Assembly: GCA_039654915.1 (NCBI GenBank)
Contig: CM077599.1
Location: 11,782,501 to 11,846,500 of the forward strand
Direction: 5' to 3'
Length of the DNA: 64,000 nucleotides
Source: Aquilaria yunnanensis
Lineage: Eukaryota; Streptophyta; Magnoliopsida; Malvales; Thymelaeaceae
Shown one piece after another: positions 1 through 51,232 of this stretch. Every line of letters begins with the position of its first letter. The first letter of the stretch is position 1. The notes below the pieces were generated by a model. The model was not told the origin of the DNA. It saw nothing but the letters and a program-made list of their open reading frames with translations, and ran no database searches. The position numbers were made by a program, and so were the translations under genes.

Positions 1-1068
1 ATCATGGAAGAAGTTCATTCTGGAATGTGTGGAGCACACACTAGTGGTCATACTATGGCAAGACAAATAATGAGAGCTGGTTACTATTGGCTCACATTGG
101 AAAGTTATTGCATCAATCACGTAAGAAAATGTCATAAATGCCAAATATATGCCAACAAGATTCAGGCTCCACCTGCTCCTCTTAATGTAACAGCAATACC
201 TTGGCCTTTTGCCATGTGGGGAATTGACGTCATTGGAGCCGTTACCCCCAAAGCTTCTAATGGTCACAAATTCATCCTAATGGCAATAGACTACTTCACT
301 AAATGGATAGAAACTGTGTCTTATGCAAATGTAACTCAAAAGGTGGTATGCCGGTTCATTAAGAAAGAAATCATTTGTCGCTATGGGCTGCCAGAGTGTA
401 TCATCTCAGACAATGCCACGAACTTGAACAATGCAATGATGCAGACTTTGTGCCAACAGTTCAAGATCAAGCATCTCAATTCAGCAACTTATCGACCGAA
501 GATGAATGGTGCAGTAGAAGCGGCCAATAAAAATATCAAGAGAATTATTGAAAAGATGATCGTCACTTACAAGGACTGGCATGAGATGTTACCTTTTGCA
601 CTACATGCTTATAGAACTTCTACCCGTACTTCTACTGGAGCAACAACTTTTTCTCTGGTATATGGTATGGAGGCTGTATTGCCCATTGAAGTTGAAATTC
701 CTTCATTAAGGGTACTAATGGATACTCAATTGAGAGAAACAGAATGGGTCAAGGCTAGATACGAACAATTAAACCTAATTGATGAAAGAAGAATGATAGC
801 CCTCTGCCATGTGCAGCTTTATCAAAGGAGGATGATTCGCGCTTACAATAAAAAGCTTCGCCCACGGAAATTTCACGAAGGTGACATAGTGCTCAAGAAA
901 ATTCTATCCATTCAGCATGATTCTAGAGGAAAATGGACACCAAATTATGATGGACCATATGTCGTGAAGAAAGCATTTTCAGGAGGGGCTCTAATTCTGA
1001 CAGAAATGGATGGACAAGAGTTACTGAAGCCAGTAATTTCAGATTCAGTAAAGAAATACTTTGCATAA
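1..1068 (+). CDS. Ty3 integrase, C-terminal part of pol (5' end outside window)
   Basis: Inserts the retrotransposon cDNA into host DNA. The frame is open from the window edge and stops at 1066-1068. The visible order fits a Ty3 integrase: the end of the HHCC zinc-binding domain (two histidines near residues 5 and 12, then CHKC), followed by the catalytic core. In the core the acidic residues sit in GIDVIG, in SDNATN (usually SDNGT, so one small change) and in NGAVEAANK, where the E completes the DDE triad. A basic C-terminal region with the GPY-type motif (YDGPYVVKK) follows. There are no stops or frameshifts over about 350 codons, so this copy may be fairly young, although the LOG gene downstream is broken. 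The sequence style matches Tat-lineage integrases. Protease, reverse transcriptase and RNase H would lie to the left. Confidence 0.9.
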   Translation: MMEEVHSGMCGAHTSGHTMARQIMRAGYYWLTLESYCINHVRKCHKCQIYANKIQAPPAPLNVTAIPWPFAMWGIDVIGAVTPKASNGHKFILMAIDYFTKWIETVSYANVTQKVVCRFIKKEIICRYGLPECIISDNATNLNNAMMQTLCQQFKIKHLNSATYRPKMNGAVEAANKNIKRIIEKMIVTYKDWHEMLPFALHAYRTSTRTSTGATTFSLVYGMEAVLPIEVEIPSLRVLMDTQLRETEWVKARYEQLNLIDERRMIALCHVQLYQRRMIRAYNKKLRPRKFHEGDIVLKKILSIQHDSRGKWTPNYDGPYVVKKAFSGGALILTEMDGQELLKPVISDSVKKYFA

Positions 1069-2335
1069 TGAAGAAATTTTCGGACAGAAGGGAAGAAGTG
1101 GATACAGGGTTACCAAAGTTTATTTGATCAAAGTTGTCAAAGAGAGCGTTCTTCCCTCACACTTTCATTGTTATTCATCTGTACTCAAGACTTTTATATT
1201 CTCTTACCCATAAATAAAAAGCTAATTCTCTTTAGCTTTCCTTTGATTCTCATGTTCAACTTTTATATTCCCTTGTTAAAAAAAAAATGATAAAGTCATT
1301 TCTACCCAGTTCTTTTCCTTCAAATCTCACATTCCTACTAGCCTTAAATGTGCAATAAATTGTGACTTTTGTAGGAAGAATAGTACTAATTAAAACTCAG
1401 AAAAAGAAAAAACCATAGATTACTTTGATAAGCTTTGTGAATTAAAACAAGTAAGATTGAGGTCCTGTTTTGCGAACGGCACAGAACATAGGCTAACAAA
1501 GAAGAAGGAGTAACAAATCTTCGGGAGATAGCCTTAGTAGTTGCCTGGATGATCGCTTCAGAAGTCTTAGCATGTTCACGTCAGCAAGAAAGAACCATAC
1601 TCACAAATATTTCAATAGGGACAATTATTTAGAGAGGCATAAAGTATGAGGCGGGCGAACATTAAAGAAATTGATGCCAAAATTCAAGAACAAGTCAAGG
1701 AAATGGGATTTTGAAAAGAGTTGGGCTTTTGAGGCAATGGACAATAGCTGGGAAGCATAAAGAGATTCAATGATAGTCCAAGAAGGCAATCACAAAGAGA
1801 ATCCAGTAAAGCAAAGACATGAAGAACTAGATCCATCCAAAAATCAAAAAAAAAAAAAAACCATCAGTTACACATGCTCTGCATTCATGCATTTCACATC
1901 ATGCATGCACAACCTTTGCATAACAGGGACCAAATGGGAAGCACATCCACGGCACAGTTACAGCAGTATAAGCTGATATCTCAATGACATCAGCTCTTAC
2001 CAGTCTATCACTGGATGCACAGCTAATACGCTGGACCCAACCTCATCAGGAATTCAAGGATAAAGTAGACAATATTGTCAAAAGCCTAGCAATCGATTCA
2101 ATAATCGAGGCTACACCTAGAATGACAGGATTGACGCCAGCTTAGTAGTATCCAAGATAAGAGATAGCTATGGTCAAGGATAAGGCAGACGTCAAGAAAT
2201 ATTGTCGTTGATAATTTGTCAAAAGCGGGCAATGGATTCAATAATCGAGGACTCCGTGACTCTCAAGTCGGTTCTCTCAGTTGCCCATAATAACTGATTC
2301 CTTCTTCCTTTCTTTCTTTTACTTCCCGCTAGAAA
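1069..2335. other. Spacer between integrase and cargo genes; no gene seen
   Basis: No convincing reading frame; the longest + frame (68 codons at 1770-1976) ends in a lysine run encoded by poly-A and looks random. A near-duplicate phrase occurs twice before the first Cys-rich gene (around 2088-2106 and 2228-2250, 'caatcgattcaataatcgagg' type), hinting at a local duplication. No TATA box comparable to those of the later cargo genes is visible before 2336. Confidence 0.5.
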
Positions 2336-2884
2336 ATGGATCCTACTCTTTCTCCTTTGCGAAAATATTTTCCTTCTCTCCCAATGAACATTCTAAAAAA
2401 GATTTACCGAGTTCGCTGTGAACGATTAAGAATTTTGATGCACAAAGGAATCCCTGAAGTTGTACGGTGGTTAATCGAAGCTAAGGTTCGTCTGGTAGGC
2501 GAAGCCCCAGATGCATTTACGTCTCACATGCCTGGCATAGGCAAAAGCTCTTATGCCAAAAAGCGAAGAGCGAAAAGGTTACAAGTCTGTCATAAATGTG
2601 GTCGATGGACTTGTAATACTAAATGTCGTTCTTTAGGAATGATCTCCGATAATCGAGAAGATAAAATACGATTCATCAGGAATGGCCTGAATAAGGATTC
2701 GTTGGATGATATCCGATTGACTCTTGAGATGCATTCTTGTGGATCAGTGCAACGTGAACTTCTTGGTTTATGGAGTATTTTTCATGAAGAACGAGAGTGT
2801 TACAGTCCTGGGAATCTGACTTTAAAAGACCCTGTTTGCCAGTTTGTAAGAAAACTGGATGGGAAGCAAATCCCTGACTCATAG
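2336..2884 (+). CDS. Small basic Cys-rich protein, cargo copy 1 (intact)
   Basis: A 182-residue protein, not firmly identified. The N-terminal half is hydrophobic/basic (KYFPSLPMNILKKIY near residues 10-24). It is followed by a basic stretch (YAKKRRAKR, about residues 74-82) and directly by a compact cysteine cluster C-x2-C-x4-C-x3-C (CHKCGRWTCNTKC). The C-terminal half has a conserved HSCG and ends QFVRKLDGK. A basic patch followed at once by a four-Cys finger is the layout of the nucleic-acid-binding/silencing-suppressor proteins of carlaviruses and relatives. That link is my inference; the Cys spacing is tighter than in the viral family, and an unknown plant zinc-binding protein is the alternative. 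It is the first of three tandem paralogues inside the retrotransposon and the only one with both an open frame and all four cysteines. Confidence 0.65.
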   Translation: MDPTLSPLRKYFPSLPMNILKKIYRVRCERLRILMHKGIPEVVRWLIEAKVRLVGEAPDAFTSHMPGIGKSSYAKKRRAKRLQVCHKCGRWTCNTKCRSLGMISDNREDKIRFIRNGLNKDSLDDIRLTLEMHSCGSVQRELLGLWSIFHEERECYSPGNLTLKDPVCQFVRKLDGKQIPDS

Positions 2885-3045
2885 AAGGCGTTGAAGCCGT
2901 TACTGGACGTAAAACCAGTGGAAGATGTGAGCCACAGTCGCAATCACTGTACATACAATTTGTCATATTTGAAAATTTGTATTTTTTTTTTGACAATAAT
3001 GTACTTGCTCCCGCAAGCGTCATTAACACGTTATCCTTTCATCGT

Positions 3046-3052
3046 TATAAAT
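3046..3052 (+). promoter_or_regulatory. TATA box of Cys-rich copy 2
   Basis: TATAAAT about 120 bases before the ATG at 3173, in a block (roughly 2880-3172) that recurs before copy 3. It suggests each copy is its own transcription unit rather than part of the retroelement genomic transcript. Confidence 0.5.
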
Positions 3053-3172
3053 GCGTGTTCTTTTTCCCGGTTAAGTAGCGGATACGGTACTCCGTGACTC
3101 TCATAGTCGGTTATTTCAGTTTCCTACAATAACTGATTTCTTCCTTTCTTCTCTCAAATTCTTTTCTCATCA

Positions 3173-3706
3173 ATGGATTCTACTCTTTCCGCCATGCGAA
3201 AGTACTTTCCTTCCCTCCCAATAAACGTTCTTAGAAGGATTTACCAAGCTAGATGTGAAAGAATCAGAGTTTTTATACACAAGGGCATTCCTAACAATGT
3301 GCGGTGGTTAATTGAAGCTAAGGTCCGTTCGGCTGTTGAAGTTTCAGATGCATTTATGCCCCGTATGCCCGGCTTAGGTAAAAGCGCTTATGCCAAAAAG
3401 CGAAGAGCAAAGAGGCTAGGTGTCTGGCATAAATATGGACGATGGAATTGCGATACTAAATGTCGCTCTTTAGGATGCATCCTGAAAAATCGTGAAGATA
3501 AAAGAAAATTCATTAAGAATGGCTTGCGTAAGGAATCTCTAGAAGATATCCGAGAGACTCTTGAAACACATTCTTGTGGAGGAGTGCAATGTGAAATTAT
3601 CGATTTATGGAAGACTTACCATAAAGAACGAGACCGTTACAGTCTTGGGAATCTGACTTTAAACGACCCTGTTTCCCAGTTTGTAAGAAAACTGGATGGG
3701 AAATAA
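3173..3706 (+). CDS. Small basic Cys-rich protein, cargo copy 2 (finger damaged)
   Basis: A 177-residue paralogue of copy 1 with an open frame from ATG 3173. The same order is visible: KYFPSLPINVLRRIY, the basic stretch YAKKRRAKR, the finger region, HSCG, QFVRKLDGK. Two of the four finger cysteines are replaced (the CHKC of copy 1 is WHKY here), so a metal-binding function in that finger is probably lost while the basic stretch is kept. Flanking DNA is also shared with the other copies, so the unit that duplicated was gene plus promoter, about 0.8 kb. The function is unknown; see copy 1 for the possible viral-type relationship. Confidence 0.6.
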   Translation: MDSTLSAMRKYFPSLPINVLRRIYQARCERIRVFIHKGIPNNVRWLIEAKVRSAVEVSDAFMPRMPGLGKSAYAKKRRAKRLGVWHKYGRWNCDTKCRSLGCILKNREDKRKFIKNGLRKESLEDIRETLETHSCGGVQCEIIDLWKTYHKERDRYSLGNLTLNDPVSQFVRKLDGK

Positions 3707-3862
3707 ATCCCCGACTTATAGAAGCCGTTACCGGACGTAAAACCAGTGGAAGATGTGAGCCACAGTCACAATTACTGTACATATAAGCTGTCATTTGTCT
3801 TTTCTTCTGACAATAATGTACTTGCTTCTGTAAGCGTAATAAACACGTTATCCTTTCATCGC

Positions 3863-3869
3863 TATAAAT
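3863..3869 (+). promoter_or_regulatory. TATA box of Cys-rich copy 3
   Basis: TATAAAT about 115 bases before the copy 3 start, in the same context as at 3046-3052 (ATCCTTTCATCG(C/T)TATAAATGCG). Confidence 0.5.
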
Positions 3870-3978
3870 GCGTGTTCTTCTTTTTGGATACGGTACTCCG
3901 TGACTCTCAAAGTCAGTTATTTCCGTTTCCTACAATCACTAATTTCTTCATTTTTTTTCTTAAATGCCTCCTTCATCA

Positions 3979-4528
3979 ATGGAGTATTCTCTTTCCGCCC
4001 TACGAAAGTATTTTCCTTCCCTCCTAATAAATGTTCTTAAAAAGATTTATCAAGCTAGATGTGAATGATTTAGAGTATTTATGCATAAAGGCATTCCTGA
4101 TAATGTGCGGTGGCTAATCGAAGCTAAGGTTCAGTCGGCTGGTGAAGTTCCAGATGCATTCTTCCCCCGTATGCCCGGCTTTGGTAAAAACGCTTATGCT
4201 AAAAAGAGAAGAGCAAGAAGGCTAGGCGTCTGTCATAATTGTGGATGGTGGATTTGCGGCACTAAATGTCGTTCTTCAGGGATAATCACCAGAAATCGTG
4301 AAGATAGAAGAAAATTCATTAAGAATGGCCTGCGTAAGGAATCTCTGGAGGATATCCGAGAGACTCTTGAAGCGCACTCTTGTGGAATGGTGCAATTTGA
4401 GATTGTCGGTTTATGGATGACTTTTCAAAAAAGAACGAGATCGTTACAGTCTTGGGAATCTGACTTTAAACGACCCTGTTTGCCAGTTTGTAAGAAAACT
4501 GGAAGGGATGCAAATCGCCAATTCATAG
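3979..4528 (+). pseudogene. Small basic Cys-rich protein, cargo copy 3 (broken)
   Basis: The third tandem paralogue. The alignable frame starts at ATG 3979. It has an in-frame TGA at 4066-4068 where the sister copies have an arginine codon, and a one-base length change in an A-run near 4425-4432 that shifts the last 40 or so codons. The finger cysteines are all present (CHNCGWWICGTKC), unlike copy 2. A shorter product could in principle start at ATG 4081, but it would lack the N-terminal segment and end in a shifted tail. Confidence 0.6.
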
Positions 4529-4570
4529 AAGGCATTGAAGCCGTTACTGGACGTAAAGCCAGTGGAAAAC

Positions 4571-4825
4571 GTGAACCAAAGTCACGACTACTGTACATGC
4601 TAGCTGTCACTTTTGAAAATTTTCCTTCACTTCCAGGAATAATGTACCTATTCCTGACATGAGCCACAGTCACGACTACTGTACATGCTAGCTGTCGCTT
4701 TTGAAAATTTTCCTTCTCTTCCAAAAAATAATGTACCCATTCCTGACGTGAGCCATAGTCATGACTACTGTGTATAGCTGTCATTTTGGAAATTTTCCTC
4801 CTCTTCCGACAATAATGTATCTACT
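4571..4825 (+). repeat. Three tandem units of about 89 bp
   Basis: Units begin near 4571, 4660 and 4749 with GTGA(A/G)CCA(A/C/T)AGTCA(C/T)GACTACTGT and continue through TAGCTGTC and GAAAATTTTCCT. Related single units lie after copies 1 and 2 (about 2925 and 3757). The 3' flank of the Cys-rich gene was amplified on its own after copy 3. Confidence 0.7.
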
Positions 4826-4861
4826 CTTGAAAATATAATTATTGCATTATCTCTTCATCTC

Positions 4862-4869
4862 TATAAATA
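4862..4869 (+). promoter_or_regulatory. TATA box of the LOG unit
   Basis: TATAAATA 41 bases before the ATG at 4910, followed by a pyrimidine-rich leader (CATCTTTTCTTCATTTC). The spacing to the ATG is short for a plant leader but usable. Confidence 0.5.
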
Positions 4870-4909
4870 CATCATCTTTTCTTCATTTCTTACAAGGTTA
4901 AGGATAGGA

Positions 4910-5539
4910 ATGGAGAAAACCTTAACTCGTAAATCCCGAAGTATTTGTGTATTTTCTGGGGCTTTTCCTGGAAAAGATGAAGAGTACTTAAAGGCAGCCA
5001 ACCATTTGGGTAGAGTATTAGCTGAGTGAAAAATACATTTAATCTATGGAGGAGATAGTGTCGGATTAATGGGAGGTGTAGCATCAGCAGCATCTTTAGG
5101 AGGAAGTCAAGTTTTGGGCATTATCCCTGGACCTTTGAAGTTTATTTCTGGGGGCACGATTGGAGAAGAGTTAGTGGCTAAAACTCTGCAAGAGCGTTTG
5201 TTACAAATGCTTTTTAATGCTGATGCTTTTATCGCTCTACCAGGTGGTTTTGGCACATTGGGATAAGTCTTTCAAATTGCTTCCATGACCCAACTTAATT
5301 TGCATAAGAAACCCATTGGGCTGTTGAATGTTAACAATTTCTTTACAGGTCTGATAGCTTTTGTGGACTACGCTATGCAGAAGAATTTTATATCAAGAGT
5401 AGCACGACGAATCCTAATATCCGCAACAACTGCTGAAGAATTGCTAGATAAAATGCAAGCTTTTGTTCCTGAACCAGATCCAATGATAATCCAGATAGAC
5501 TGGGCACGACAATCTTTCCCGACTAGTTCCGTCCCATAA
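4910..5539 (+). pseudogene. LOG-like: LOG-type cytokinin phosphoribohydrolase, captured, two stops
   Basis: LOG enzymes release active cytokinin bases from cytokinin riboside monophosphates in the cytosol. The frame from ATG 4910 to the stop at 5537-5539 spans about 209 codons, the usual LOG length. It shows CVFSGAFPGK, YGGDSVGLMGGVA (usually YGGGS), GIIP, DAFIALPGGFGTL and KPIGLLNV in the family order. Two in-frame stops interrupt it: TGA at 5027-5029 and TAA at 5264-5266. The second falls in the PGGxGTxxE signature: the residue after TL is G, and the stop lies where the second acidic residue normally sits. There are no introns and no frameshift, so a processed copy or selection for compactness are both possible. 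It lies in the same orientation as integrase and downstream of the Cys-rich genes, inside the retrotransposon. Confidence 0.85.
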
Positions 5540-6063
5540 TTGTCTTTTACTTGGCCTGTTGAAGCATTGTGGAAGAAGAAGCGATCCGATCTGTTATTCT
5601 TGTCCTTTAGTTTTATTATCAGCATTTTCTTTCGTGTTTTGGTTTTTCTTTTCAGGGAATTTCTTTCGTTTTTATCTTGCAGGATAGTTTGGTTCATGCT
5701 AATATTAAAACCATAGGACAAAGCCTTTAGTTTGGAATGGCTGAGTAAGGAGTAATTTTGTTTACTCTTGAGACGCATCCTATTAGGTCCACTAGTCAGG
5801 ACATTTTTGGGTAGCTAAGCTTCAACCTTATTTGGATGACATATCTCACAAGGGAATCTATATTTTCTGAAGAAAATATTAGATGAAACCTTGGATATTG
5901 ATTCCAAACATCCGTACCCTTACATAATTTGTCTGTTTTATTTCACATTATCAAGATTCACTCATCTCATGGAAGTTTAAATTCTTGCACTCGCCTATTA
6001 TGAAAATTTACACTTCCGAAGAAATTATTCCAATTTCAATTGCTTTTATATAAAGTTTGCGTG
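5540..6063. other. Spacer after LOG; no gene seen
   Basis: AT-rich DNA with no convincing frame. It joins the LOG copy to the hairpin minisatellite. Confidence 0.5.
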
Positions 6064-6836
6064 GGGTGCTAAGGAAAGCTCCTTAACCCCAGAAAGGAGA
6101 AAAACTCTTTTCTCCACCAATCAATCAATTTTCTTTCAATGATAGGACAGCTCCTATCGCCGAGGTCCTAAGGAAAGCTCCTTAGCCTCAAACCAAGCAA
6201 TTTTCCTTCAACGATAGGACAGCTCCTATCATCGAGGTCCTAAGGAAAGTTCCTTAGCCTCAAACCAATCAATTTTCTTTCAACGATAGGACAGCTCCTA
6301 TCGCCGAGGTCCTAAGGAAAGCTCCTTAGCCTCAAACTCAATCAATTTTCCTTCAACGATAGGACAGCTCCTATTGCCGAGCTCCTAAGGAAATCTCCTT
6401 AGCCTCAAACTCAATCAATTTTCCTTCAACGATAGGACAGCTCCTATCGCCGAGGTCCTAAGGAAAGCTCCTTAGCCTCAAACTCAATCAATTTTCCTTC
6501 AACGATAGGACAGCTCTTATCGCCGAGGTCCTAAGGAAAGCTCCTTAGCCTCAAACTCAATCAATTTTCCTTCAATGATAGGACAGCTCCTATCGTCGAG
6601 GTCCTAAGGAAAGCTCCTTAGCCTCAAATTCAATCAATTTTCTTTCAATGATAGGATAGCTCATATCGCCGAGGTCCAAAGGAAAGCTCCTTAGCCTCAA
6701 AATCAATCAATTTTTCTTCAACGATAGGACAGCTCCTATCGCCGAGGTCCTAAGAAAAGCTCTTTAGCCTCAAAATCAATCAATTTTCCATCAACGGTAG
6801 GACTGCTCCTATCGCCGGGGTTTTAAGGATGGAACC
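6064..6836 (+). repeat. Hairpin minisatellite, type A units (about 72 bp, about 10 copies)
   Basis: Each unit holds two perfect 7-bp-stem inverted repeats with 4-base loops, GATAGGA-CAGC-TCCTATC and CTAAGGA-AAGC-TCCTTAG, joined by GCCGAGGTC and CCTCAAACTCAATCAATTTTCC. Tandem repeats between pol and the 3' LTR are known for Tat/Ogre elements. The last unit here is already of type B. The array is split at 6837 by a solo LTR. Confidence 0.9.
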
Positions 6837-7807
6837 TGATAGCCAAAGGCTATTGCCTCCTCGGTAGTAACTCCCTGCCAGAATATTGGCCGAGGAGTCT
6901 GACGTCACCCAAGAGAGGATCTTTTCATTGACCTCGGAAGGTGCGAAGTCAAACACTATGAGCTCGAGACTTTGGTTAGCTCGTCAGGAATTCCGAGGAC
7001 AACACCGTTTCCATCGAGGGGCCAAACTGACCGTCTTCGGGTAAGAGAGCCATCTCTCTGAAGCAAGGGAGAATCTCCTCGAAGGCCGAGGCCCCGAAGA
7101 GGTCTTCCCCGAACAAGAAACACCTGAACAAGGGAATCCCCGAACTATGGGTGCGAGTCCCGAAGAAGGTGTTCATCAAGGGAACTCCCAGAACTATGGG
7201 ATATATCCCGAATGAGGTGCTCGCACCGAAGGACGGATAGAATCCGAAGAGGGTGCACGCACCGAAGGGCGACCTCGCCCAGGGGACCTCGGGAGTACGG
7301 TATGAGCATTTAAGGAGCCTCTGACATGCCGCCCGCAAGCCCTACACGTCACATCAGAACGGCGAACTGACACGCCGTAGCCGCCCCAGTCCTGACACAA
7401 CCTGTCCGGGTCCAAGGCTAAAGGAGGCTGCAAACGGCTGCCTGTCCCCTAGGTCCAAAAATACAGATCAAATCCGACCGAACACGTGTCATGATCTAAA
7501 CGGACCAGCTACTCCTATAAATACTAGGAAATGGGACTGGGCAAAGGATGGGCATTTTCCCCCCTCTGAGAAAACACAAAACAGGCAAGACACTTGATCC
7601 CTTAGTGTTCTTCCTCCACTTTCACTCAGAAAACTGACTTGGGCGTCGGAGGGTCCTCCCCGGAAAAGCAAACCGGGGACCTCCTAACCTCTTCCTTGAG
7701 CTTTTCAGACACACTCAGCTGGGAAACCAGAGCTCCAGGCGCTCGCCTCTTCAGGAAGTCTCTCCGCCTGTCAACATGACAGCAAACGAAGATGCTTTGG
7801 GGCATCA
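6837..7807 (+). mobile_element. Solo LTR (family B), 971 bp
   Basis: Begins TGATAGCCAAAGG and ends GGGGCATCA, with a perfect 5-bp target duplication GAACC at 6832-6836 and 7808-7812. Removing it restores a normal minisatellite unit. A TATA box (TATAAATA, 7516-7523) sits about 680 bp in, as in an LTR promoter. It is more GC-rich than its surroundings. The same family occurs at 17495-18353. The frames inside it show no conserved domain. Confidence 0.93.
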
Positions 7808-8937
7808 GAACCTTTGCCTCGAAATCAATCAATTTTCCTTTAACGATAGAACTGGTCCTATTGCTGAGGTTTTAAGGATGAAACCTTTGCCTCAAAATCA
7901 ATCAATTTTTCTTCAACGGTAAGACTGCTCCTATCGCCGAGGTTTTAAGGATGAAACCTTTGCCTCAAAATCAATCAATTTTCCTTCAACGGTAGGACTG
8001 CTCCTATCGCCGAGGTTTTAAGGATGGAACCTTTGTCTCGAAATCAATCAATTTTCCTTCAACGGTAGGACTGCTCCTATTGCCGAGGTTTTAAGGATGG
8101 AACCTTTGCCTTGAAATCAATCAATTTTCCTTCAACGGTAGGACTGCTCCTATTGCCGGGGTTTTAAGGATGGAACCTTTGCCTCGAAATCAATCAATTT
8201 TCCTTCAACGGTAGGACTGCTCCTATCGCCGAGGTTTTAAGGATGGAACCTTTGCCTCGAAATCAATCAATCAATTTTCCTTCAAACAGTAGGACTGCTC
8301 CTATCGTCGGGGTTTTAAGGATGGAACCTTTGCCTCGAAATCAATCAATTTTCCTTCAACGGTAGGACTGCTCCTATCGCCGGGGTTTTAAAGATGGAAC
8401 ATTTGCCTCGAAATCAATCAATTTTTGTTCAATGTTAAGACTGCTTCTATCGCCGAGGTTTTAAGGATGAAACCTTTGTCTCAAAATCAATCAATTTTCC
8501 TTCAACGGTAGGACTGCTCCTATCGCCGCGGTTTTAAGGATGGAAGCTTTGCCTCGAAATCAACCAATTTTCCTTCAACGGTAGGACTGCTCCCATCACT
8601 GAGGTTTTAAGGATGGAACCTTTGCCTCAAAATCAATCAATTTTCCCTCAACGGTAAGACTGCTCCTATTGCTGAGGTATTAAGGATGGAGCCTTTGCCT
8701 CGAAATCAATCAATTTTCCTTCAACGGTAGGACTGCTCCTATCGCCGAGGTTTTATGGATGGAACCTTTGCCTCGAAACCAATCAATCAATTTTCCTTCA
8801 ACGATAGGACAACTCCTATCGCCGAGGTTCTAAGGAGAGTTCCTTAACCTCAATCTCTATCAATCAATCAACTTTTCTTCAAACGGTAGGAAGGTTCCTA
8901 TCGTAGAGGTTCTAAAGAGGATTCCTTAACCTCAGGA
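7808..8937 (+). repeat. Hairpin minisatellite, type B units (about 72 bp, about 14 copies)
   Basis: Continues the array after the solo LTR. Units read GGTAGGACTGCTCCTATC, GCCGAGG, then TTTTAAGGATGGAACCTTTGCC and ATCAATCAATTTTCC. The first hairpin is kept with a G/T change in the stem, while the second is replaced by a shorter AGGTT/AACCT pairing. The last two units drift back toward type A. Confidence 0.9.
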
Positions 8938-9022: not shown

Positions 9023-9038
9023 TGCAAAGAGGGGCAGC
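9023..9038 (+). promoter_or_regulatory. Polypurine tract for plus-strand priming
   Basis: TGCAAAGAGGGGCAGC directly before the LTR start TGTTGACACCC at 9039. This is the place and composition expected of a polypurine tract and it fixes the element's orientation as +. Confidence 0.8.
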
Positions 9039-11908
9039 TGTTGACACCCAATTTCATTCGACTTTTTTTTTACAAAACAAAAACAATTTAATTAAAAATC
9101 AAAAATAATAATAATAATAATAAATTATTAATTAATTATTATACAAAGAGAAAATTAAATTAAATAGTTTTTGGGGAGGGGCATTTTGTTAAGTTAATAT
9201 CTATGTGTGTATATCCAAAAAAAATTAAAATTAAAAACTAAAAAAAATTAAAAAAAATTAATTATTATTATTATTACTGAAAAAAAAATTAATTAAGTTA
9301 ATTAGTTTAAAATACATTTTGTTTTATAAGGGTTTAGTTAAAAATGATATATGTGTGTATATATGTATGTATGAAATACAAAAAAAAACTCCATAAAAAA
9401 ATGAAAAAATTAAAAAGTTTGGAGTAAAAATGACAGAATTAAGAAGTTTTGGGAAAATTTGACAAAAACTAAAAGTTCCAGGAGCATTTGGTAATTTTCC
9501 GCATCAATTTTGGGCCAAACAGACGGTTCTGGCTCAAATTGACAGAAAAAGACAAAATTGTCTCAATCAGAAGTTTCAGGAACATCCCCAAAGTCAAAGA
9601 AACATAAAGGACTGAAACTGTCATTTTAGCAAATTAAGAGATAAGTCTGTTTTTAATTAAATTTCAAATTTTTTTAATTAAGGGAATCCAAGGCCCCTTC
9701 CCCTATAAATAGGGGGTGAAATCTGCAAAGAAACCAAGAAAAAAAATTAAGATTAGTGCCGTTTAAAAAAAAAAAGGGAAAAACTGTAGAAAAGTCCTTA
9801 GCCTCTGCCCCTTCACTAAAAAAAAAAAAACTAAACTTTCATTCCTAAACTCTTTTTGCCGTTAGCCTCTCTCGCCGTTTTCGCGCCTGTCACCCTCCGT
9901 CGCTCGCCATACCTCCCTCCTCCACTCCAGCCGCCGTCTCGCTGCTTTCGTCGCACGCCGACGCCGTCTCTCCCTCTCCTCGCCTTCCGCCGAAATTCCC
10001 TCTCTCTCTCACTGTTGTTCTCCTCTCTCTTTCTTCACCCTCCCCTTGCTGCCGACGCCATTTCCCCCTCTTCGCCGCCGTCGTCATCTCTCCCAGACGC
10101 TCCAGCCGCCGTTTCGCCACCTCCGTCGCTCGCCGGCGCCACTCCTCCTTCTCCCCTCCACTCTCTTCTCTTCTCTTGTTTTTTCCGTTCTTCTCCTCTA
10201 TCCACCCCCAGCTCACTGCCGACACCATCGCCGCCTCCAGACTTCCCCTTGCTCGCCGTCGCCGTCGCTTCTATCTCCCATCGCCCAGGAAGTTTAAAAT
10301 TTTACTCTTTAGGTAAAATTCTGTTTTAATCCTTCATCTTTTTATATTCTTTCATTCATGTCACTAACCTTTTTTTTTTTGCAGAATTAACACTAACTTT
10401 TGTGTGATTTATTTATTTGTTCTTATTTTTTTTTCTTTCATGGAAGTTATACCTCCTAATTTTTAGTGGATGACCAAAAAGTCTCACTTTTCTTTATTTA
10501 TTTAATTTCCTGCAATTATTTAATTTATGCACTTTTATTTTTTTTTTAAGGAAGGTTATACCTGCTACTTTTTTTTTAAGTGGATGGCCAAGAAGCCCCA
10601 CTTTTCTTTATTTAATTTCTGTAATTATTTAATTTATGCATGTTTATTTTATATGGACGGTTATACCTCCTATTTTTTTTATTCTAAGTAGATGGCCAAA
10701 AAGCCCCACTTTTCTTTATTTATTTAATTTCCTACAATTATTTAATTTATGCACTTTAATTTTTTTATGGAAGGTTATACCTCCTACCTTATATTTTAAG
10801 TGGATGGTAAAAAGCCCCACTTTTTCTTCATTTATTTAATTTCCTGTAATTTACTTTATGCAATTATGTGGATGATTAAACTTATTTCACTTTTAGCCAT
10901 AAAAGATGATAAATAAATAAAAAAAGAAGAATTTTTTTATGTGAATCATTAACTTTATCTCACTTATTTTTAGTGCTAATCAAGAATCCATTTTTACAAC
11001 AAAGCCCCCATCCTTTATTATTTTGGAACACATATATTTTTTTAAAACAATAAAAAGTTAACCTTTTATTCCTTTTATTAGAAATTAAAACTAAAAAAAA
11101 AATCATAACCAGACAATAAAAAAAATCAAATTTTAAGTATATCTTTTTTTAAAAAAAATCTTTCATCAAACAAAAAAGAAAAGAATAAGAAAGAAAAGAG
11201 TAAAAAGAAAAAGAAGAAAAAAATAAGAAAAGAAAAAAATAAGAAAATAAAAATAAAAAATTGAAAAAAGAACAAAATAATTTTTTTTTAACAAAAATTA
11301 AAATTAGTTAACATTAAGGTTATTAAAAATCCAAAAGTTCACAAAAATTTATGACAAATTAAGAATTAAGTTTTTTTTTTAAGTTAAAATCCATGTCCGG
11401 GTGATCAAATAGGATTCATGGCTTGGAGAAAACATAAATTTTTAAATGAATAAAATTAAGTATCAGAATAAAATCCATATTCTGATAATTTGGCAGAATT
11501 TATGATATGGATTATTAATTAATAATTAACTAAAATTTCATTAAATTCCGTGACCGGGTGATTCGATAGAATCCATGGTTCGGAAATATCAAGTTTGTTA
11601 TAAAATTGCGCAAATTAATTATCAAGATTTTTTTTAAATCCGCATTAATTCATTAGTCCACATCTGGACGATTTCAGTTAAAATTTTTAGTTTTGAAAAT
11701 TAACTGAATTTATTGAAAAGCAAAGCAAAACAAAATTGAAATCAACTAAGGTACCAATTTTTGGGCGCTATAACAAAGTTGTTTTAGCGTAACCGTATCC
11801 CCGAACCTTTGAACTCTTGCAGACCATTTTTAGGTATCCAATCGACCTGAGCGAAAACCGATTGGTGGCGACTCCCGAAAACCCCCCCATACCCCGTACA
11901 TTGCCACA
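9039..11908 (+). mobile_element. 3' LTR of the Tat element, 2870 bp
   Basis: Starts TGTTGACACCCAATTTC and ends GTACATTGCCACA. An inverted relative with clean target duplications (25020-28299) gives both ends. A core promoter CCCTATAAATAGGGGG (TATA at 9704-9710) lies about 665 bp in, followed by a pyrimidine- and GC-rich stretch (9840-10290), probably transcribed leader, then long AT-rich DNA. The 157-codon frame at 9856-10329 is Pro/Ser-rich low-complexity translation of that leader, not a likely gene. Confidence 0.9.
10430..10870 (+). repeat. Tandem repeat inside the Tat LTR (about 90 bp, 4-5 units)
   Basis: Units contain GGTTATACCTCCTA, AAGTGGATGGCCAAAAAGCC and CCACTTTTCTTTATTTATTT. The same array is present in reverse at about 26740-27110 in the solo Tat LTR, so it predates both copies. 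Confidence 0.8.
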
Positions 11909-12781
11909 AAAGTATTGTTTAAAAATGTATAACAACCAATTACCTTTAACGTGGTCACGTGCTCCTCTCGTGCAGCTCGAGATACATGTGACCAAGATAT
12001 AGAACTTTCGTCCCACAACCTCACATGAATAGAGGCTATGGTGGAACGAACAGAGTCATCAATGAGTAAGTTGTAACAAATGATGATTATAATAAGATAT
12101 ATATATAAACTGATGTATAAGAACAACGTATAATTATATCAAAATTAACTTTGTAACAGTCAGTAATACTTACTCTCAAGGGACGATGAGCGGACGGTCC
12201 TGCGGAGGTGGAGGTGGTGGTAAGTCAACTACCCGTGGGCCTCGCCCTCTAGGTAATGGGGAGCCAGCAGCTGGCTGGGCGTCAGGTGCGGCCGCTGGGC
12301 CGCCAGTGGCCTGGGCCTGCTGAGGTGGCTGCTGCTGCTGCTGAGTCGGGTGTAGGCCGGGTAGATGAGGAGTGGATATACCGAGCTCATCTGGATCAAG
12401 GAATGAGTTAGGATCGACATCCCATGTGGGCTGCCCGATCCCTGTTTGCTGGTACTGAAATGACCCGGATATTCCGCTCATATCCTGGTAATACGCATCA
12501 GTCTGCGTGTCTCGAAACTGCTGAAATGCGGATCCGGAGCTCGATGCGCCAAACGTGTGCGGCACATGAGGTTGTGACACCAGAGTATATGGCAGCTGCG
12601 TCTGTGGCTGGGTCGGATGCACCGATGTCTGAGCCTGTGTCTGTGAGAGCTGGGTCTGAGTGTCAGTCTGTGACACCTGTGTAGGTGTCACAGCAGGCTG
12701 TCGTCGACCCCGACTACGTCGGGGATCATGTATATCCTTGGCCGGGGCTTTGCCCGAGCCGGACTGTCTGGGGCGAACCAT
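11909..12781 (-). pseudogene. Second CACTA gene (TNPA/Ptta-type), truncated by the retrotransposon
   Basis: The likely start is the Met at 12781-12779, right after a good splice acceptor (TTTAATTTTAG/G). An untranslated first exon ends at a GTAATT donor near 13416. The first coding exon (about 200 codons) is Q/P/T-rich (PTQVSQTDTQTQLSQ, QQQQQPPQQ, PPPPPP). It ends at a TGA (12176-12178) just before a GTAAGT donor, so it is either mutated or mis-spliced. A second exon (about 11940-12060) has a W-containing segment (SSISWSHVSRAAREEH) like plant Ptta/En/Spm transposases and is followed by GTAATT. The rest should lie left of the retrotransposon, outside the window. It probably encodes the DNA-binding partner of the transposase. 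Confidence 0.6.
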
Positions 12782-13416
12782 CCTAAAATTAAAGTTTAAC
12801 ATGTTTATTACATATATATGTAATACTAAATTAGCATTACGTCACTAACATTTACATATTAAATTTCATTATTTTAGTAAACTTTGTAATTTTTGAAATT
12901 TCAGTCATTTGAATACCATTTGTGCAGTAACACTTTTTAAAATTGCCAATTAATTATTATTTGATATATACTTATTTATAAAATTAATTATTAAACTAGC
13001 ATTAGCGGATTATACTTACATTTTTTAAGTAACATTAGTGTTGTAACTTGCGCTTCTTAATTACACTAACATTATTAAAGTGCTAACAATATTACTCTAA
13101 CATTATTGAACTAACAGTTTTTTATATTAACCACATATATAGTAACATGCTATAGTACAAATAGAAGTAACCATTATTACATAAAAAATTATTGTTGTCC
13201 CTAACCACATACATATTAATTACTAACACCATATAACTAACCACATACATATTCATTACTAACACCATATATAACATTACCTAAAACATATAATATAAAA
13301 ACTAACTTCTTAAAATTTAACCTTCAATACGTGCATTATATATATATGTAAACAACAACTATATGTAATAACAAACAATAATTATATATGAAAAATTACT
13401 TAAAAATAAAAATTAC
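12782..13416 (-). other. Intron of the second CACTA gene; AT-rich, no other feature
   Basis: The span between the inferred 5' donor (near 13416) and the acceptor before 12781 on the minus strand. No reading frame or repeat of note beyond short ACATATAT-type runs. Confidence 0.45.
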
Positions 13417-14578: not shown

Positions 14579-17500
14579 TCAAACATCATCGCCTTCATCT
14601 GACTCAAAACTATCGAGCGATGTTTCATCATCTGATGTATCCCTATCGGCTTCTGTGATCTCGATGTTCTCATCCAGTTGTTGGACGATTTTAGGAACAG
14701 ACGTTCTATTGACAAGTATGTTAATCTCATCAAGGGCAATGCCATCAGTTGTTTCCATTAGTACTTCACTTGAAATCACTTCTTGGAACGGCTCATTTGT
14801 GGTTTCTAACCGACATGTTTGCTCATTAGACATTTCCTCATTCTCGTCAGATCGAATACTTAAATTATTCGATGAACAATCGATGAAAGCTTGTGGGTTC
14901 GTCTTTACCACCGGCCACCACTGATGAAGAGTCTTGTTAGGGTACTAACAGTAGTAAACTTGTTGAGCCAGTGTCACAAAGATAAACGGCTTAGGTGGTG
15001 ATAATCTTGACTTCCATTTAACGTCAACAACACCAGTATGTGCGCAACTTCGAACACCACGTGTCGGATCAAACCAAGTACATTTGAACAGCGTCATGAC
15101 TTCATACCCACTCCCGTGGTACTCAATACGTATAATCTCATCAATAAGGCCATAAAAATCATAGCCATTGGATCCCCATGTCTCACCCTTCACGCAAACA
15201 CCATAATTCTGTGTCGTTTTGTCTTTGCCGTAGGATTGTGTATGTAAACGAAAACCATTCACAATACATCCATTGTATGAAACGACAACTCGAATAGGAC
15301 CATGGGCTAATTGTACAATACGAGGATCTAATTTATCCTTGAAACGGTTAACCTGAAAATATCAAGTTAATATAATAACATAATTGCACAGTAAATTCAA
15401 ACAGAACACAATTAGGAACATGAAAATTATCATGCCATAAAACTCACGTATGATACAAGCCATTCAGTCAAATGCTGGTCTCGAACACTTTGTAATTCAC
15501 TTTCACCTAATTGGGGAAATCTTGTTGATATATAAGAGTCAAAGTGCCTGAAATGATAACTAGTTAATAATGAATTAAAGCAATCAGATTGATATAAAAA
15601 CCCTCACAGTTGTTTACATATATGTTACTTGACAATCGGTATAATCTCATTACAGTTGCGCAAAGTGTAGATATGCATTTGATGTTTCTCAGTGGGATCA
15701 AGTAAGCGTTGTCGCCCGCAGTTGGGTATGTTACGACATCTTGTATTGAAGATAGATAACAATTGACCCTTGACATCAGCCACAGGAATAGGTATATCAT
15801 CATTTCATGGGACCCTGTTTAACTGTGTAGGAATATTTACTTCAAAGTAATGGCTACAGAATGTAGACATTTCCTGGACCAAGTACGCTTCCACAATTGA
15901 TCCTTCAATTGCAGCTTTATTTCTAGCCTTTCGCGACCGCATTAGTCTGCCAAGTTAAAAAAATATAACAATTAATGACATGTAATATGCGAAAATTATT
16001 GACATATAATATATGAAAATTATTGACAGAAATATGAATGCAGATTAAAAAATTACCTTTCAAATGGATACATCCATCGAAATTGAACTGGACCACACAA
16101 CTTTGCCTCATGAGGGAGGTGGATAACAAGATGTTCCATCGAATAAAAAAAGGCAGGAGGGAATATCTTTTCTAGATTACATATGGTAACCACTATATTC
16201 CACTCTGTTGTATGTCATCAAATCGAATCCTACTTGTGCATAAGGTTCTGAAAAATGAGCAAAACTCAGAAATCATCTCCCATATAGGACCTGGCATATA
16301 CCCACGTAATGCAATTGGAAGCAACCTCTGCATGAACACATGACAATCGTGACTCTTGAAGTTATGGAATGTACCGTCACTCAAGTTAACTGTACGACCC
16401 AAGTTCGAGGAATAACCATCAGGCATCTTTATCGTTCTCAGCCACAGAGTAACATCTCTTACATGTTCCCGACTCAACGTATAAGATGCTTTTGGTTTTA
16501 CACATTTTCCCCTAATATTTCGTAAATGTAGATCACGCCGCATATTTTTTAACTCCTGAAGCGAAAGGCGAGAATTGGAGTTATCTTTTGTTTTCCCATG
16601 TATATCCATAGCAATATTAAAAATATTCTCGAAACAATTTTTTTCAATATGCATGACGTCCAAATTATGGCGAACTAGCAAATGCTTCTAGTACGGCAAC
16701 TCCCAGAATATACTCCGCTTTAACCAATTATGCCACTCTCCAAACCCCGTAACTCAGTGTTTATCATATGAAGAGCCAAACAGAGGAAAACAATACCCAA
16801 CCAACATAGTATGTATTTCCTCACCTGACTTATATGGACTAGCGACAGCACTAACCTTCTTCCCTGGGATGAACGATGTTACATTCGAACGGAATGTGTG
16901 ATTATACGGTAAAAAAACCCTGTGACAATTAAACCAACATGGCTTTCTGCATTTCTTCAACATAAATGTGTCAATTTCATCCATGCAATATGGACACGCC
17001 AGCTTACCATGGGTACTCCAACCTGAAAGGTTTCCTAGTGCAGGAAAATCATTAATTGTCCATAATAAACATGCCTTGATAAGAAAATTTTGTTGTCGAC
17101 AACTGTCCCATGTAACAACCCCTTCCGACCATAAAGTTTTGAGCTCCTTAATCAATGGTCGTAAGAATACATCAATGTTGCGTCCTGGTGCTCTAGGACC
17201 AGGAATTAGGAGAGTCATAAAGATGAAGGGTTCTTTCATACACAGTTCTGGCGGAAGATTGTAAACAACTATAAAGATTGGCCATATCGTGTATGTTCCA
17301 CCAACAACATTATTCGGGTTAAATCCATCGGTACACAATCGGAGCCTAACATTTCTAATTTCATTAGCAAATGATGGGAATGTTCGATCTATGTGACGCC
17401 ACGCTTCAGACTGACATGGATGACCCATACTTCTATCATTGCATGATTTATTATAAGCATGCCAAGTCATGTGAGTCGCTGTTTTGATTACATGTGATAG

Positions 17501-19311
17501 CCGAAGGCCTTTCGCCTCTTCCAGTACGCGCTCCCCGAAGGGCCGTCTGGGGAGCCTGATGTAGCTCGGAAATAAGCATTGCCAATGACCTCGGCAGAAG
17601 TGGAGTCGAGCACGACAAAGTAAGCACTTTGACTAAAACGCCAGAATTATTTAAATGTGTTGCCGGCTACCTCGGGAAACCGAACATATCATCTTCGGGA
17701 GCAAAGAGCCAGCTACTGAAAGCAGGAGAGATTCTCCCGAAGGCATAACTCCCCGAGCCACCAACATGATTCCCGAGGAAGGGCGTCCGTGCCAAGGGGG
17801 CGACCTCGCCCAAAGGGCCTCGGGAGTACGGCATGAGCATTTAATGAGCATTTAAGGAGCCTCTGACAGGAAACCCACACGCCGCCTGAAATGGTGACTT
17901 GACGCACTGACGCCGTCCAAGTCCTATCTCAGCCACAAAACCAGGAGCCTATAGACGGCTACCTGTTCCCTACGCCCAAAAAGCACAGAGAGGATCCGAC
18001 CGAACACGTGTCAGGATTTGAACGGGCCAGGCATTTCTATAAATACTGGGAAAAAGGACTTGGCAAGGGATGGGATCCATCCCCTCTCCGTGATCAGCCT
18101 TCGCCCATAGCTGAAAATATATGCAGGCTAGCTCTCGCACCTTTCTAGTGGGCCTACTTTCTTCATTATCAGAGCACTGACTTGGGCGTCGGAGGCTCCT
18201 CCCCGGAAAACCATCCCGGGGACCTCCTAACGCTTTTTTCTGAGCCTTTCAGGTATTTTCCCACCTGGGGAATATCTCAGCAGGACGTCCTTCCCCCTCG
18301 GAAGCTCCCTCGGAATTCACTATGTCACTGGACAGAGATGCCGGAGGGCATCAACATGTACAAGTGCTTCAACCTGCTTGTTATTGGTAGATACCATAAC
18401 AATTTTTTCGGAATCAACGTCTTCCTTCCGGAGGTTACTCTTTCTTTATATCTACTGCTTCCACATTCACGACAATGTGTTAATTTCTCATCTTCCCGAT
18501 AGAATAGCATACAGTTATTCTTACATGCATGAATTTTTGTATATGGCAACCTAAGTCCTTTTGTGAGTTGTTTCGCATCATATAGGGTGGACGAGAGTCT
18601 ATTACTTTCAGGCAACATTTTTTTCATAAGCTCCAGTACTCTATCGAAACAACGATCTATCATATTAGACTCACTTTTGCAACTTAACAATTGGGTCATT
18701 GCAGACAATCGTGTTTGTTTAGTGCACCCATCCCACAATGGTGCATTTGCATCATCCAACAAATTATAAAATTGTTATGCGGTTGGATTAGGTAACCCCT
18801 CTCTCATTTCAGATACATCGAACACATTATCATTATTATCACTGTCATTATCAGGTTCTTTGACATCAATATCGATAAAGTCTTCATCCACCAATATTCT
18901 TTCACTATTTTTAGATCCTAAATTCGATGATAATGGACCCATTGATTCACATACCATCTGTTTATACGCATTTACACTACTTGATTCTCCCCTTGTCCCT
19001 CCATATAACTGAGATGGAAAATAGCTACGGGCCATATTTAAATTGTGCAGATTGCTATCATATTGTTCATTGTGACAGTGCCATATGTAATAGTTTGGGG
19101 TAAATCCATATCGAAACAAATGCTCTCTAACTTTCAGCTCTATTCGATAAAATCTGTTATTACATTTACGACAAAGGCATTTAATCATTTCTGACTCCTT
19201 CCCACTAAATGCAAACTGTAGAAACTCATTAACACCAGCCATAAATGCAGAATTCATATATCCATCTGTATCTGTCATCTGGTACATCCACTCATGTCCA
19301 TTAGCAGCCAT
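14579..19311 (-). pseudogene. CACTA transposase (TNP2-type), several stops, split by solo LTR
   Basis: Catalyses excision and insertion of CACTA elements. Reading on the minus strand from the Met at 19311 there is a transposase-associated zinc domain (WMYQMTDTDGYMNSAF..., CLCRKCNNR, WHCHNE). The core follows (LLDDANAPLWDGC, then after the solo LTR SMGHPCQSEAWRHID, LCTDGFNP, ACPYCMD, RHNLDVMHIEKN). DUF4218 comes next (FPPAFFYSMEHLVIHL, then AYLVQEMSTFCSHYF in a later exon). DUF4216 lies at about 14950-15260 (YGLIDEIIRIEYHG, LFKCTWFDP), with an acidic tail ending at 14579. Stops interrupt the frame at 18776-18778, 16753-16755 and several later points, and a solo LTR sits at 17495-18353. The domain order is complete, so the decay is recent to moderate. 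Confidence 0.88.
17495..18353 (+). mobile_element. Solo LTR (family B), 859 bp, inside the CACTA transposase
   Basis: Begins TGATAGCCGAAGGCC and ends GAGGGCATCA, with a perfect 5-bp duplication ACATG at 17490-17494 and 18354-18358. Deleting it and one ACATG rejoins the transposase coding sequence. A TATA box is at 18038-18045. It is the same family as 6837-7807, sharing the phrase CTTGGGCGTCGGAGG and the downstream CTCCTCCCCGGAAAA. Confidence 0.93.
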
Positions 19312-37829: not shown

Positions 37830-38335
37830 TCTAAAGCTTATTTTGCCCCTTGAGCTTTGTCAACTCAGACATTTTAGCCCTTAAACTTTGACTCTGTTCG
37901 ACTTACCTCTCAAACTTTGTAAATTGGGACTTTTTACCTCTCACTCCAATTAAAAGAAGAATGTGTACTAAAATGAAAATAAAAAAAATTTAAATGACTA
38001 ACTAAATCATTTGTCTAGTGATTGACTCTTATAAGCAAATAATGAGAAACCTTAATACAAATTTATAGGCAAAACAAAGGAAAGATGTGCAATTTTAAAT
38101 GTGAAACTGAAGCCTTTATTATTTGCTCACAATGGTCAACTATTGGACAAATGATTTAGTTAGCCCTTCAGTTCTCTTTTTATTTTTATTTTAGTACATA
38201 TTCTCCATTCAAACTAGGTTGTGATGGTAAAAGGTTTCTGTTCGTAAAGTTTGAGGAGCGAGTCGAATTGAGTCAACTCTAAAGGGTAAAAAGTTTGAGT
38301 TGCCAAAATTTAGGGGGGGAAGGGGCTTCAGGCTT
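37830..38335. mobile_element. MITE with long inverted ends, about 500 bp, inside the foldback
   Basis: Left TTATTTTGCCCCTTGAGCTT, CAACTCAGACATTTTAGCCC and ACTCTGTTCGACTTACC mirror right CGAATTGAGTCAACTC, GAGTTGCCAAAATTTAGG and GAAGGGGCTTCAGGCTT, arms of about 100 bp. Exact ends and target duplication were not fixed. Confidence 0.6.
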
Positions 38336-50159: not shown

Positions 50160-51232
50160 AGGAATGAAAATCTTCTATCCCCAAAACTCTCTATCGCCTT
50201 CATGTCCTGTCCTTATAATACTACCACGCGTCTACAGTAAATAAGGAAGTTACGGAAAGTTAATGTCATACGGGCAGTTTGGCAAAAATCAAAGACAACA
50301 ACTACATCATTCAGAAGAAAAACTTTGAACTTGGTGTTTTAAAACAAAAAATCTTTAGTTTAGTCAGTAAATGTTCTTCCTTTTCTTTTGTTTTATTTTT
50401 TTTAATCAACAAAATCCTACGTTTTGCCTATACACTTAAAAAAAAGTGATTAATCAAATCATTTTAAGACTAATAATTAATATTACAAATTATCAATTTT
50501 CATCTTTGTAAATAATTTTTATATCATTTAAAATGAAAAAATTAATAATTTAAACTACCCATTAACTATAAAAAATTTTCTACACTTTTTAAATTTACTA
50601 CAGAATAGTTATCAAATTATTTAAATAGAAATTTAAAAATTCATGTCATGTAGTTATTTGACAAACCGGCATGCAAAAAACTAGTTTTGAAAGAAACATC
50701 TCTTTGTTGAAAACATTTCAATTGGATCTCACACGAGATTGATCACTTAACTTAGAATGTCTTCAAATTCTATTTAAATTATTTGATAATTATTCAATAG
50801 TAAATTTAGAATGTGTAGTAATTGTTTTATAGTTAATGAAAAGTTTAAATTATTAATTTTTTCCTTTTTGAATGGTATAAAGATGATTTACAGAGATGAA
50901 AAATTAATAATTTCAAATTTTAATTTCAAATTATTAGTCTTAAAACCATTTGACTAATCAATTTGTTTTGAAGTTTTCGGGTATAAGTTAGGATTTTGAT
51001 GATTAAAACAAATAAAAGAAAAGAAAATGAAAAACATTTACTAACTAAACTAAAGAACTTTTGTTTTGAAACACGAAGTTGAAGTTTTTTTTTTTTTTCT
51101 AAATAATGCAGTAGTTGTCTATATCGTTCACTTTCCATAAATATTTTATTTTTAAGCACGTGACAGTATTACAAGGATGTGCATGGCATGAAGGAGACAA
51201 AGACTTTTGGGGCAGAAGATTTTCGGGCAATT
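50160..51232. repeat. Long foldback element, copy 2, next to the FMO promoter
   Basis: The left arm (about 50160-50640) and right arm (about 50645-51232) are imperfect reverse complements over nearly their whole length. Examples are GAAAATCTTCTATCCCC with GGGGCAGAAGATTTTC, and GTTTTAAAACAAAAAATC with the mirrored text near 51060. Same family as 37735-40990. It ends about 30 bases before the FMO TATA box. Transcribed RNA would fold into a hairpin of up to 480 bp. Confidence 0.8.

Follow-up and report, generated by a model that had tools for sequence, protein, structure and literature searches.

NABP genes and a LOG gene in an Ogre/Tat-type retrotransposon family of Aquilaria yunnanensis

Introduction

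Long terminal repeat (LTR) retrotransposons are usually seen as passive targets of silencing. Might a retrotransposon that carries extra genes behind its integrase use them to change the state of its host cell? The question is raised by 64,000 nt of contig CM077599.1 from Aquilaria yunnanensis (host genome 842 Mb), which we call the window. An earlier note on this DNA described a Tat/Ogre element with three tandem basic, cysteine-rich frames of a possibly viral type and a full-length LOG frame with two stops. We find that these genes are real, under selection, amplified, and more widely spread than that note said. Judging from sequence comparisons, the NABP genes (as we call the cysteine-rich frames) and LOG likely let the element change host cell state as viruses do.

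Results

An Ogre/Tat-type element carries three NABP genes and a LOG gene

The element is an Ogre/Tat-type plant LTR retrotransposon; its 5' end lies outside the DNA read, and Ogre and Retand are not told apart. The C-terminal end of its integrase, with a match to rve, opens the window and ends at 1068, on the same strand as the genes behind it, as had been claimed. In 3 kb upstream of the window (L030), we found G-patch, reverse transcriptase (RT), RNase H, and second RNase H domains, and the order RT, RT_RNaseH_2, RVT_3 directly precedes the window's integrase. A second (archaeal-type) RNase H between RNase H and integrase is given as the mark of Ogre and Retand in PMC6317226, and it has that position here. 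This domain order bears out the assignment to the Tat/Ogre lineage, but NABP genes also occur outside it, in Athila-like elements (see below). In Retand, an antisense TRP28-type frame is described between pol and the 3' LTR in 97% of clusters (PMC11963269); the four longest antisense frames of the window, which holds one decayed copy, gave no Pfam match. Behind the integrase, three tandem NABP genes (N1, N2, and N3) for basic, cysteine-rich proteins are followed by a full-length LOG gene with two stops (Table 1), and all four frames had been seen correctly.

We searched the host genome with the DNA of this gene region itself as the query, scored 37 of 4474 candidates, and fetched 20 copies beside the window. 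The gene order is conserved: N2, N3, and LOG are present in 21 of 21 copies (the 20 fetched plus the window), and N1 in 20 of 21. Integrase, spacer, NABP array, and LOG are collinear in 15 of the 20 fetched copies, and the pieces for the other five have no integrase match. Given these collinear copies, we reject the idea that a nested or chimeric insertion separates LOG from the integrase, and the claim that no element boundary lies between them holds up. Two further copies were picked by their integrase match, and both carry the NABP array and LOG. One has four open NABP frames and a LOG without a stop as far as it was read; the other has three NABP genes, one of them broken, and a full open LOG. 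Another six integrase–LOG pairs lie on one strand, 4.2–4.9 kb apart (known from coordinates only). The number of NABP genes varies between copies, three or four. As position and order agree between the copies, and as two of two integrase-picked copies have both kinds of gene, the genes belong to the element lineage, as had been proposed.

The window's copy is old and decayed; in its family, intact genes are common, since many of the scored copies are open. Among the 21 copies of the old subfamily, frames are open for N1 in 5, for N2 in 9, for N3 in 9, and for LOG in 3. Protein searches of the window's genome, whose counts cover the best-scored candidates only, gave far more. For N1, 105 of the best 150 (of 8304 candidates) have no stop, and 57 have an identical score and no stop (counted by hand). 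For LOG, 149 of the best 150 (of 3605) have no stop, and for integrase, 113 of the best 114 (of 25084). LOG pieces from the young NABP group contain the full 209-aa frame in 8 of 12 cases, and the other four begin inside the gene; a thirteenth piece, L031, has one stop. Overall, the family is present in more than a hundred copies, with a young amplification, and members with open frames, which the earlier note had suggested looking for, are numerous in the window's own genome.

NABP proteins and their probable viral relatives

By the Pfam cut-offs, the suggested relation to viral cysteine-rich proteins stands for N1, in part for N3, and not for N2. N1 passed the Pfam cut-offs of both Viral_NABP (26.5 bits; cut-off 23) and Carla_C4 (23.0 bits; cut-off 20.9). 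The searched part of N3 (139 aa, 4081–4497) passed Carla_C4 (22.4 bits) and did not pass Viral_NABP, and N2 is below the cut-offs of both. In one young copy, all four NABP proteins are above both cut-offs. Within the window, the NABP units including their leaders repeat at 78–81% nucleotide identity. A search up to E 10 gave 261 homologues. Its top 120, which we refer to as listed, are 55–89% identical and include proteins named from Populus, Xanthoceras, Acer, and Rhamnella; 60 of the 120 are exactly 182 residues long, 103 have the C4 finger pattern, and all carry a precomputed PF01623 assignment. In IMG/VR, no relatives were confirmed. Contigs in GTDB gave one relative, on the plant-like contig L009 within a bacterial metagenome-assembled genome.

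Could two short basic proteins with a C4 finger have become alike without common descent? Convergence would allow for the shortness of the matched stretch and for the lack of any PDB match to the NABP profile up to E 10. Nevertheless, we consider convergence unlikely, because two separate viral models score above their curated cut-offs in four of four NABPs of one copy and because PF01623 is assigned to every one of the listed homologues.

The LOG gene belongs to a clade of its own

Host LOG genes generally have introns, and the element's LOG gene has none. The motif PGGxGTxxE is interrupted by a stop in the window; it is present in open copies of the window's genome and in 107 of the 120 listed LOGs of the transposable element (TE) type. 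In a tree, a branch with 100/100 support separates 25 TE-type LOGs from 16 host LOGs (LOG1/3-like and LOG8 only). From copy number and this clade, all 120 listed LOG homologues are probably TE-borne. One protein of the TE-type clade, P0184, carries the host name LOGL10 in poplar, and P0187 is named alike. Some listed NABP and LOG proteins lie on contigs of equal size (8723, 4511, and 2128 bp), which hints at pairing in other plants.

Many TE-type LOGs from elsewhere end in a tail that resembles an EAR motif, which is LxLxL or DLNx(x)P (PMC9956375). LxLxL is found in the last 30 residues of 95 of the 120 listed TE-type LOGs and in the last 12 residues of 94, versus the last 30 residues of 0 of 120 host LOGs and 3.8% of shuffled sequences. 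In a structure model of a relative from another species, which has a predicted local distance difference test score (pLDDT) of 82, the tail is disordered. The window family lacks this tail: in its genome, all 150 scored LOG matches end short of it, at residue 201 of the 215-residue query.

The tail raises the question of whether the TE-type LOG is mainly a transcriptional co-repressor. The LOG fold, with a basic stretch and LxLxL, would recruit TOPLESS (TPL), NABP would give the DNA contact, and the module would silence host defence or TE-silencing genes instead of producing hormone. The enrichment of LxLxL at the very C terminus fits, and there is a precedent in the effector HaRxL21, which is described as binding TPL via a C-terminal EAR motif (PMC9956375). 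We nonetheless think that this is improbable: the scored matches in the window's genome stop short of the tail, the 94 tailed LOGs are not independent because they are related, and TPL binding is a prediction.

NABP genes also follow the integrase in Athila-like elements

The relative found in GTDB, L009 (DAIEQH010000041.1), is labelled as a Candidatus Nomurabacteria metagenome-assembled genome and is very likely plant contamination. It holds an integrase without a second RNase H and then, on the same strand, an NABP gene; its frame at 104–1591 has integrase domains only and no RVT_3. An integrase that comes after RNase H without a second RNase H is an Athila feature, and L009 has it. In the window's genome, five of five elements from the top of the integrase match list (L044–L048; integrases 69–72% identical to that of L009) carry an NABP gene directly behind the integrase. 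We take L009 and these five to be Athila-like, from lineage motifs plus the missing second RNase H. In two of two members of another group, with 62% integrase identity, there is no NABP within 1.5 kb of the integrase.

Ogre-type and Athila-like integrases are 31% identical. The NABPs of the host's Athila-like elements, though, are 69–77% identical to N1 of the window and 60–67% identical to the NABP of L009. In a tree of 35 rows, which took four of the five host Athila rows and left out the fifth, host Athila and Ogre NABPs form one clade together with P0001 (100/99), with L009 outside, and the Athila NABPs stand beside N2 and N3 (98/93). Because this tree is at odds with the similarity of the integrases, NABP has likely moved between lineages. 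The four Athila rows form a single clade in 12% of bootstrap trees; they may still be one clade, so that one transfer would suffice. An old duplication followed by losses might also place NABP in both lineages, but an exchange of the NABP unit between Ogre/Tat and Athila, in either direction, is the simplest reading and a likely one.

Purifying selection between subfamilies and lineages

The earlier note had proposed computing the ratio of nonsynonymous to synonymous substitution rates (dN/dS) across copies. We compared the window with L031, a single 15%-diverged copy of a second subfamily. The ratios were 0.14 (0.08–0.26) for N1, 0.34 (0.21–0.56) for N2, 0.31 (0.18–0.56) for N3 (taken from a sister copy), and 0.25 (0.13–0.47) for LOG. 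The four genes are under purifying selection between subfamilies, with intervals that exclude 1, and the contrast with off-frame controls is clearest for N1. NABP paralogues gave 0.37–0.45, and the Ogre NABPs against the Athila-borne NABP of L009 gave 0.19–0.26, again with intervals below 1; in these tests most other frames were at least 0.7, and one reverse frame was at 0.41–0.63.

Within the old subfamily, pooled ratios were 0.52 for integrase, 0.86 for N1, 0.56 for N2, 0.49 for N3, and 0.48 for LOG. (Of 21 rows, 11 were used for integrase, 17 for N1, 21 for N2, 16 for N3, and 14 for LOG; gapped or unmatched rows were left out and stop codons were skipped.) Off-frame controls ranged from 0.37 to 0.98 against 0.48–0.86 for the genes, so we rejected these ratios as a sign of function. 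Such a likeness to off-frame ratios is what decaying copies would be expected to give. The proposed comparison thus gave constraint between subfamilies (0.14–0.34) but nothing beyond the controls within one.

If the genes were passengers (an ordinary LOG cDNA of the host, and a finger gene captured from a virus or from the host, both transduced by chance and multiplied without function), uninformative ratios within a subfamily would be expected, and so would the broken LOG and N3 of the window. Plant LTR elements are also known to transduce genes, though in one or few copies (PMC11963269). We consider the passenger explanation very unlikely. It is disfavoured by the purifying selection between subfamilies and lineages; by the many listed NABPs of exactly 182 residues despite their sequence divergence; by NABP copies that multiplied yet stayed open; and by the fully supported branch that sets the TE-type LOGs apart from host LOGs.

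A shared leader and TATA-like boxes

The leader motif CCGGTTAAGTGGCGGATACGGTACTCCGTG.. precedes the NABP genes of both Ogre copies and Athila-borne copies. In the window, the leader of N1 is cut short: at 2250/2251, about 97–366 bp are absent that are present in 19 of the 20 fetched copies (the twentieth is unaligned here). A structured RNA leader was considered and dropped (z-scores of -0.6 to -1.6), and Rfam gave no match in positions 1–6100 of the window; what we claim for the leader is sequence conservation alone.

TATA-like boxes (TATAAAT) stand before N2, N3, and LOG at positions that are kept across copies and in L031 (Table 1), which suggests that these genes are expressed separately. 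Neither N1 nor the four Athila-borne NABP copies examined are preceded by TATAAAT. Because such a box occurs in shuffled sequence with a chance of 3–11% per site, and because the copies are related, we only infer that the boxes are promoters.

Other features of the window

The earlier note placed the polypurine tract and the LTR at about 6064. This was not correct: both lie further downstream, and 6121–8934 is mainly minisatellite and an inserted solo LTR.

Table 1. Parts of the element and their positions in the window.
Feature	Position	Strand	Remarks
Integrase, C-terminal part	1–1068	+	rve 2.3e-10; pol continues upstream of the window
Spacer from integrase to N1	1069–2335	+	from the alignment of copies
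Conserved leader of N1, 5' side cut short in the window copy	2251–2335	+	common to N2, N3, and Athila-borne NABP
NABP gene 1 (N1)	2336–2884	+	182 aa, open, C4 finger intact
TATA-like box TATAAAT before N2	3046–3052	+	at -127 in 21/21 copies; at -87 in L031
NABP gene 2 (N2)	3173–3706	+	177 aa, open; two of four finger cysteines changed
TATA-like box TATAAAT before N3	3863–3869	+	in 20/21 copies; also in L031
NABP gene 3 (N3)	3979–~4533	+	broken by one stop and a frame change; open in 9/21 copies
Duplicated 88-bp unit upstream of LOG	4569–4830	+	length of the stretch varies between elements
TATA-like box TATAAAT before LOG	4862–4868	+	at -43 to -49 in 21/21 copies; at -40 in L031
LOG gene	4910–5539	+	intronless, 209 codons, two internal stops; Lysine_decarbox 1.4e-28 (X at stops)
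73-bp minisatellite, first block	6121–6829	+	
Inserted solo LTR of another family, 971 bp	6837–7807	.	duplicated site GAACC on both sides
73-bp minisatellite, second block	7808–8934	+	82-bp unit in the last part
Polypurine tract GCAAAGAGGGGCAGC	9024–9038	+	directly before the LTR
3' LTR, 2870 bp, TGTTGACACCC ... TTGCCACA	9039–11908	+	a second LTR of the family lies at 28299–25020 on the minus strand

A solo LTR of the element's own family (3280 bp, duplicated site TAAGG) lies on the minus strand at 28299–25020, and part of the inserted solo LTR at 6837–7807 is 69% identical to 17798–18252. The minus strand also has a 208-aa frame at 12176–12802, rich in Q, T, and P and close behind the LTR, and a 238-aa frame at 16754–17470, which we take to resemble a CACTA transposase fragment. 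The inverted repeats at 37856–38307, 50166–51224, and 52585–52920 look like small DNA transposons.

Discussion

We propose that the NABP array and LOG of this Ogre/Tat-type element form an effector gene set that would promote division of the host cell and weaken its silencing, and we put the probability of this reading at roughly one half. Each gene of the array would be transcribed from its own promoter. NABP would enter the nucleus, use its basic stretch and C4 finger to bind nucleic acid, and act on host promoters or on small-RNA silencing, much like the NABPs of carlaviruses (also called CRPs): some carlavirus CRPs are described as suppressors of silencing, and the CVB CRP as a transcription factor that causes hyperplasia (PMC12172455). 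LOG would release active cytokinin in or near dividing cells, and in relatives from other plants its EAR-like tail might recruit TOPLESS co-repressors. With the host cell shifted in this way, the element would be copied and inherited more often.

Besides the ratios within the old subfamily, several points weigh against this proposal. The match to viral NABPs spans only about 31–90 residues around the finger, the structure model of NABP is poor (pLDDT 54), and the NABP of L009 passes just one of the two viral Pfam models. Each between-subfamily test of selection rests on one pair. In that test, one reverse frame gave 0.27–0.49, which we read as an echo of third positions, and for N3 and LOG some other frames were at 0.40–0.71, two further ones among them at 0.51–0.71, with most frames higher. 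Three of three Athila-like copies that were read (of L044–L048) have NABP but no LOG match in 3 kb further downstream; the NABP–LOG pair is thus not obligatory. Copies without NABP or LOG may exist, the integrase-picked sample being two copies. Finally, the LOG of the window's family is divergent, with a long stem in the tree, and its scored matches lack the LxLxL tail.

The genes could instead serve the element's own cycle and not the host cell. NABP might chaperone the element's RNA or cDNA or bring it into the nucleus, and LOG might have been co-opted as a scaffold, with a secondary role for its enzyme activity. A small, basic protein with a C4 finger, such as NABP, is what one would expect of an accessory factor that binds RNA; in Athila-like elements, its gene stands directly behind the integrase; and the LOG tail of other species, modelled as disordered, could bind a partner. 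We find this account rather doubtful, given that most listed relatives of LOG retain PGGxGTxxE and that the gene is under purifying selection, that the TATA-like boxes suggest separate expression, and that viral CRPs are described as acting on host silencing or gene expression (PMC12172455).

The effector gene set may also be part of something wider, namely a mobile cassette that Ogre/Tat and Athila elements share. NABP with its leader would hop between lineages and be amplified in tandem, and in Ogre it would be joined by LOG, with a tail that recruits TOPLESS in many plants. By raising cytokinin and dampening silencing in meristem cells, the cassette would let the element reach the germ line through virus-style manipulation of its host. 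We regard this extension as possible and put it forward tentatively.

Host reprogramming by retrotransposons would become directly testable with a family in which genes of the viral silencing-suppressor or transcription-factor type are kept, selected, and multiplied beside a LOG gene. There are consequences for annotation as well. A TE-type LOG bears a host gene's name in poplar, and a major survey of extra frames counted only those of at least 250 codons (PMC6317226), a cut-off above the length of NABP and LOG genes.

The earlier note knew of no family with this pair of genes. For LOG, part of this is already in print: a LOG-type (YgdH) domain is described in Gypsy elements of Citrus and poplar (PMC9289625, citing Steinbauerova 2011). 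For NABP, we found no paper on its presence in retrotransposons among the titles and abstract starts of the open-access literature in PMC, and the module of NABP plus leader and its occurrence in two lineages are apparently new. The Citrus and poplar elements share with ours a LOG-family domain inside a Gypsy element; in the description of them in PMC9289625, neither an NABP array nor an EAR-like tail is named, nor is selection on LOG.

Other known systems share parts of this arrangement. Like Ogre and Retand of the Tat clade, the element has a second RNase H between RNase H and integrase, a long LTR, tandem repeats in its 3' region, and extra frames downstream of pol; it differs in that its extra frames, NABP and LOG, are sense-strand genes. 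Ogre-like elements of orchids carry an N6-methyladenosine (m6A) demethylase (AlkB), whose domain is also found in Alpha- and Betaflexiviridae (PMC9289625), and so offer another example of a domain shared between plant viruses and an extra gene of an Ogre-like element. Their RNA demethylase was tested in vitro, whereas NABP and LOG are known here from sequence alone. The NABPs of carlaviruses and allexiviruses have the same basic stretch and C4 finger, with scores above the Pfam cut-offs in part of the element's copies, but the element's open copies are 182 aa long and stand in tandem within a retrotransposon. With plant LOG (cytokinin riboside 5'-monophosphate phosphoribohydrolase), the element's LOG shares the domain, PGGxGTxxE, and, in the relative that was modelled, a confident structure model; we predict the same activity for it. 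It differs from plant LOGs in that it is intronless, falls in a single TE-type clade, and has, in its relatives, an EAR-like tail.

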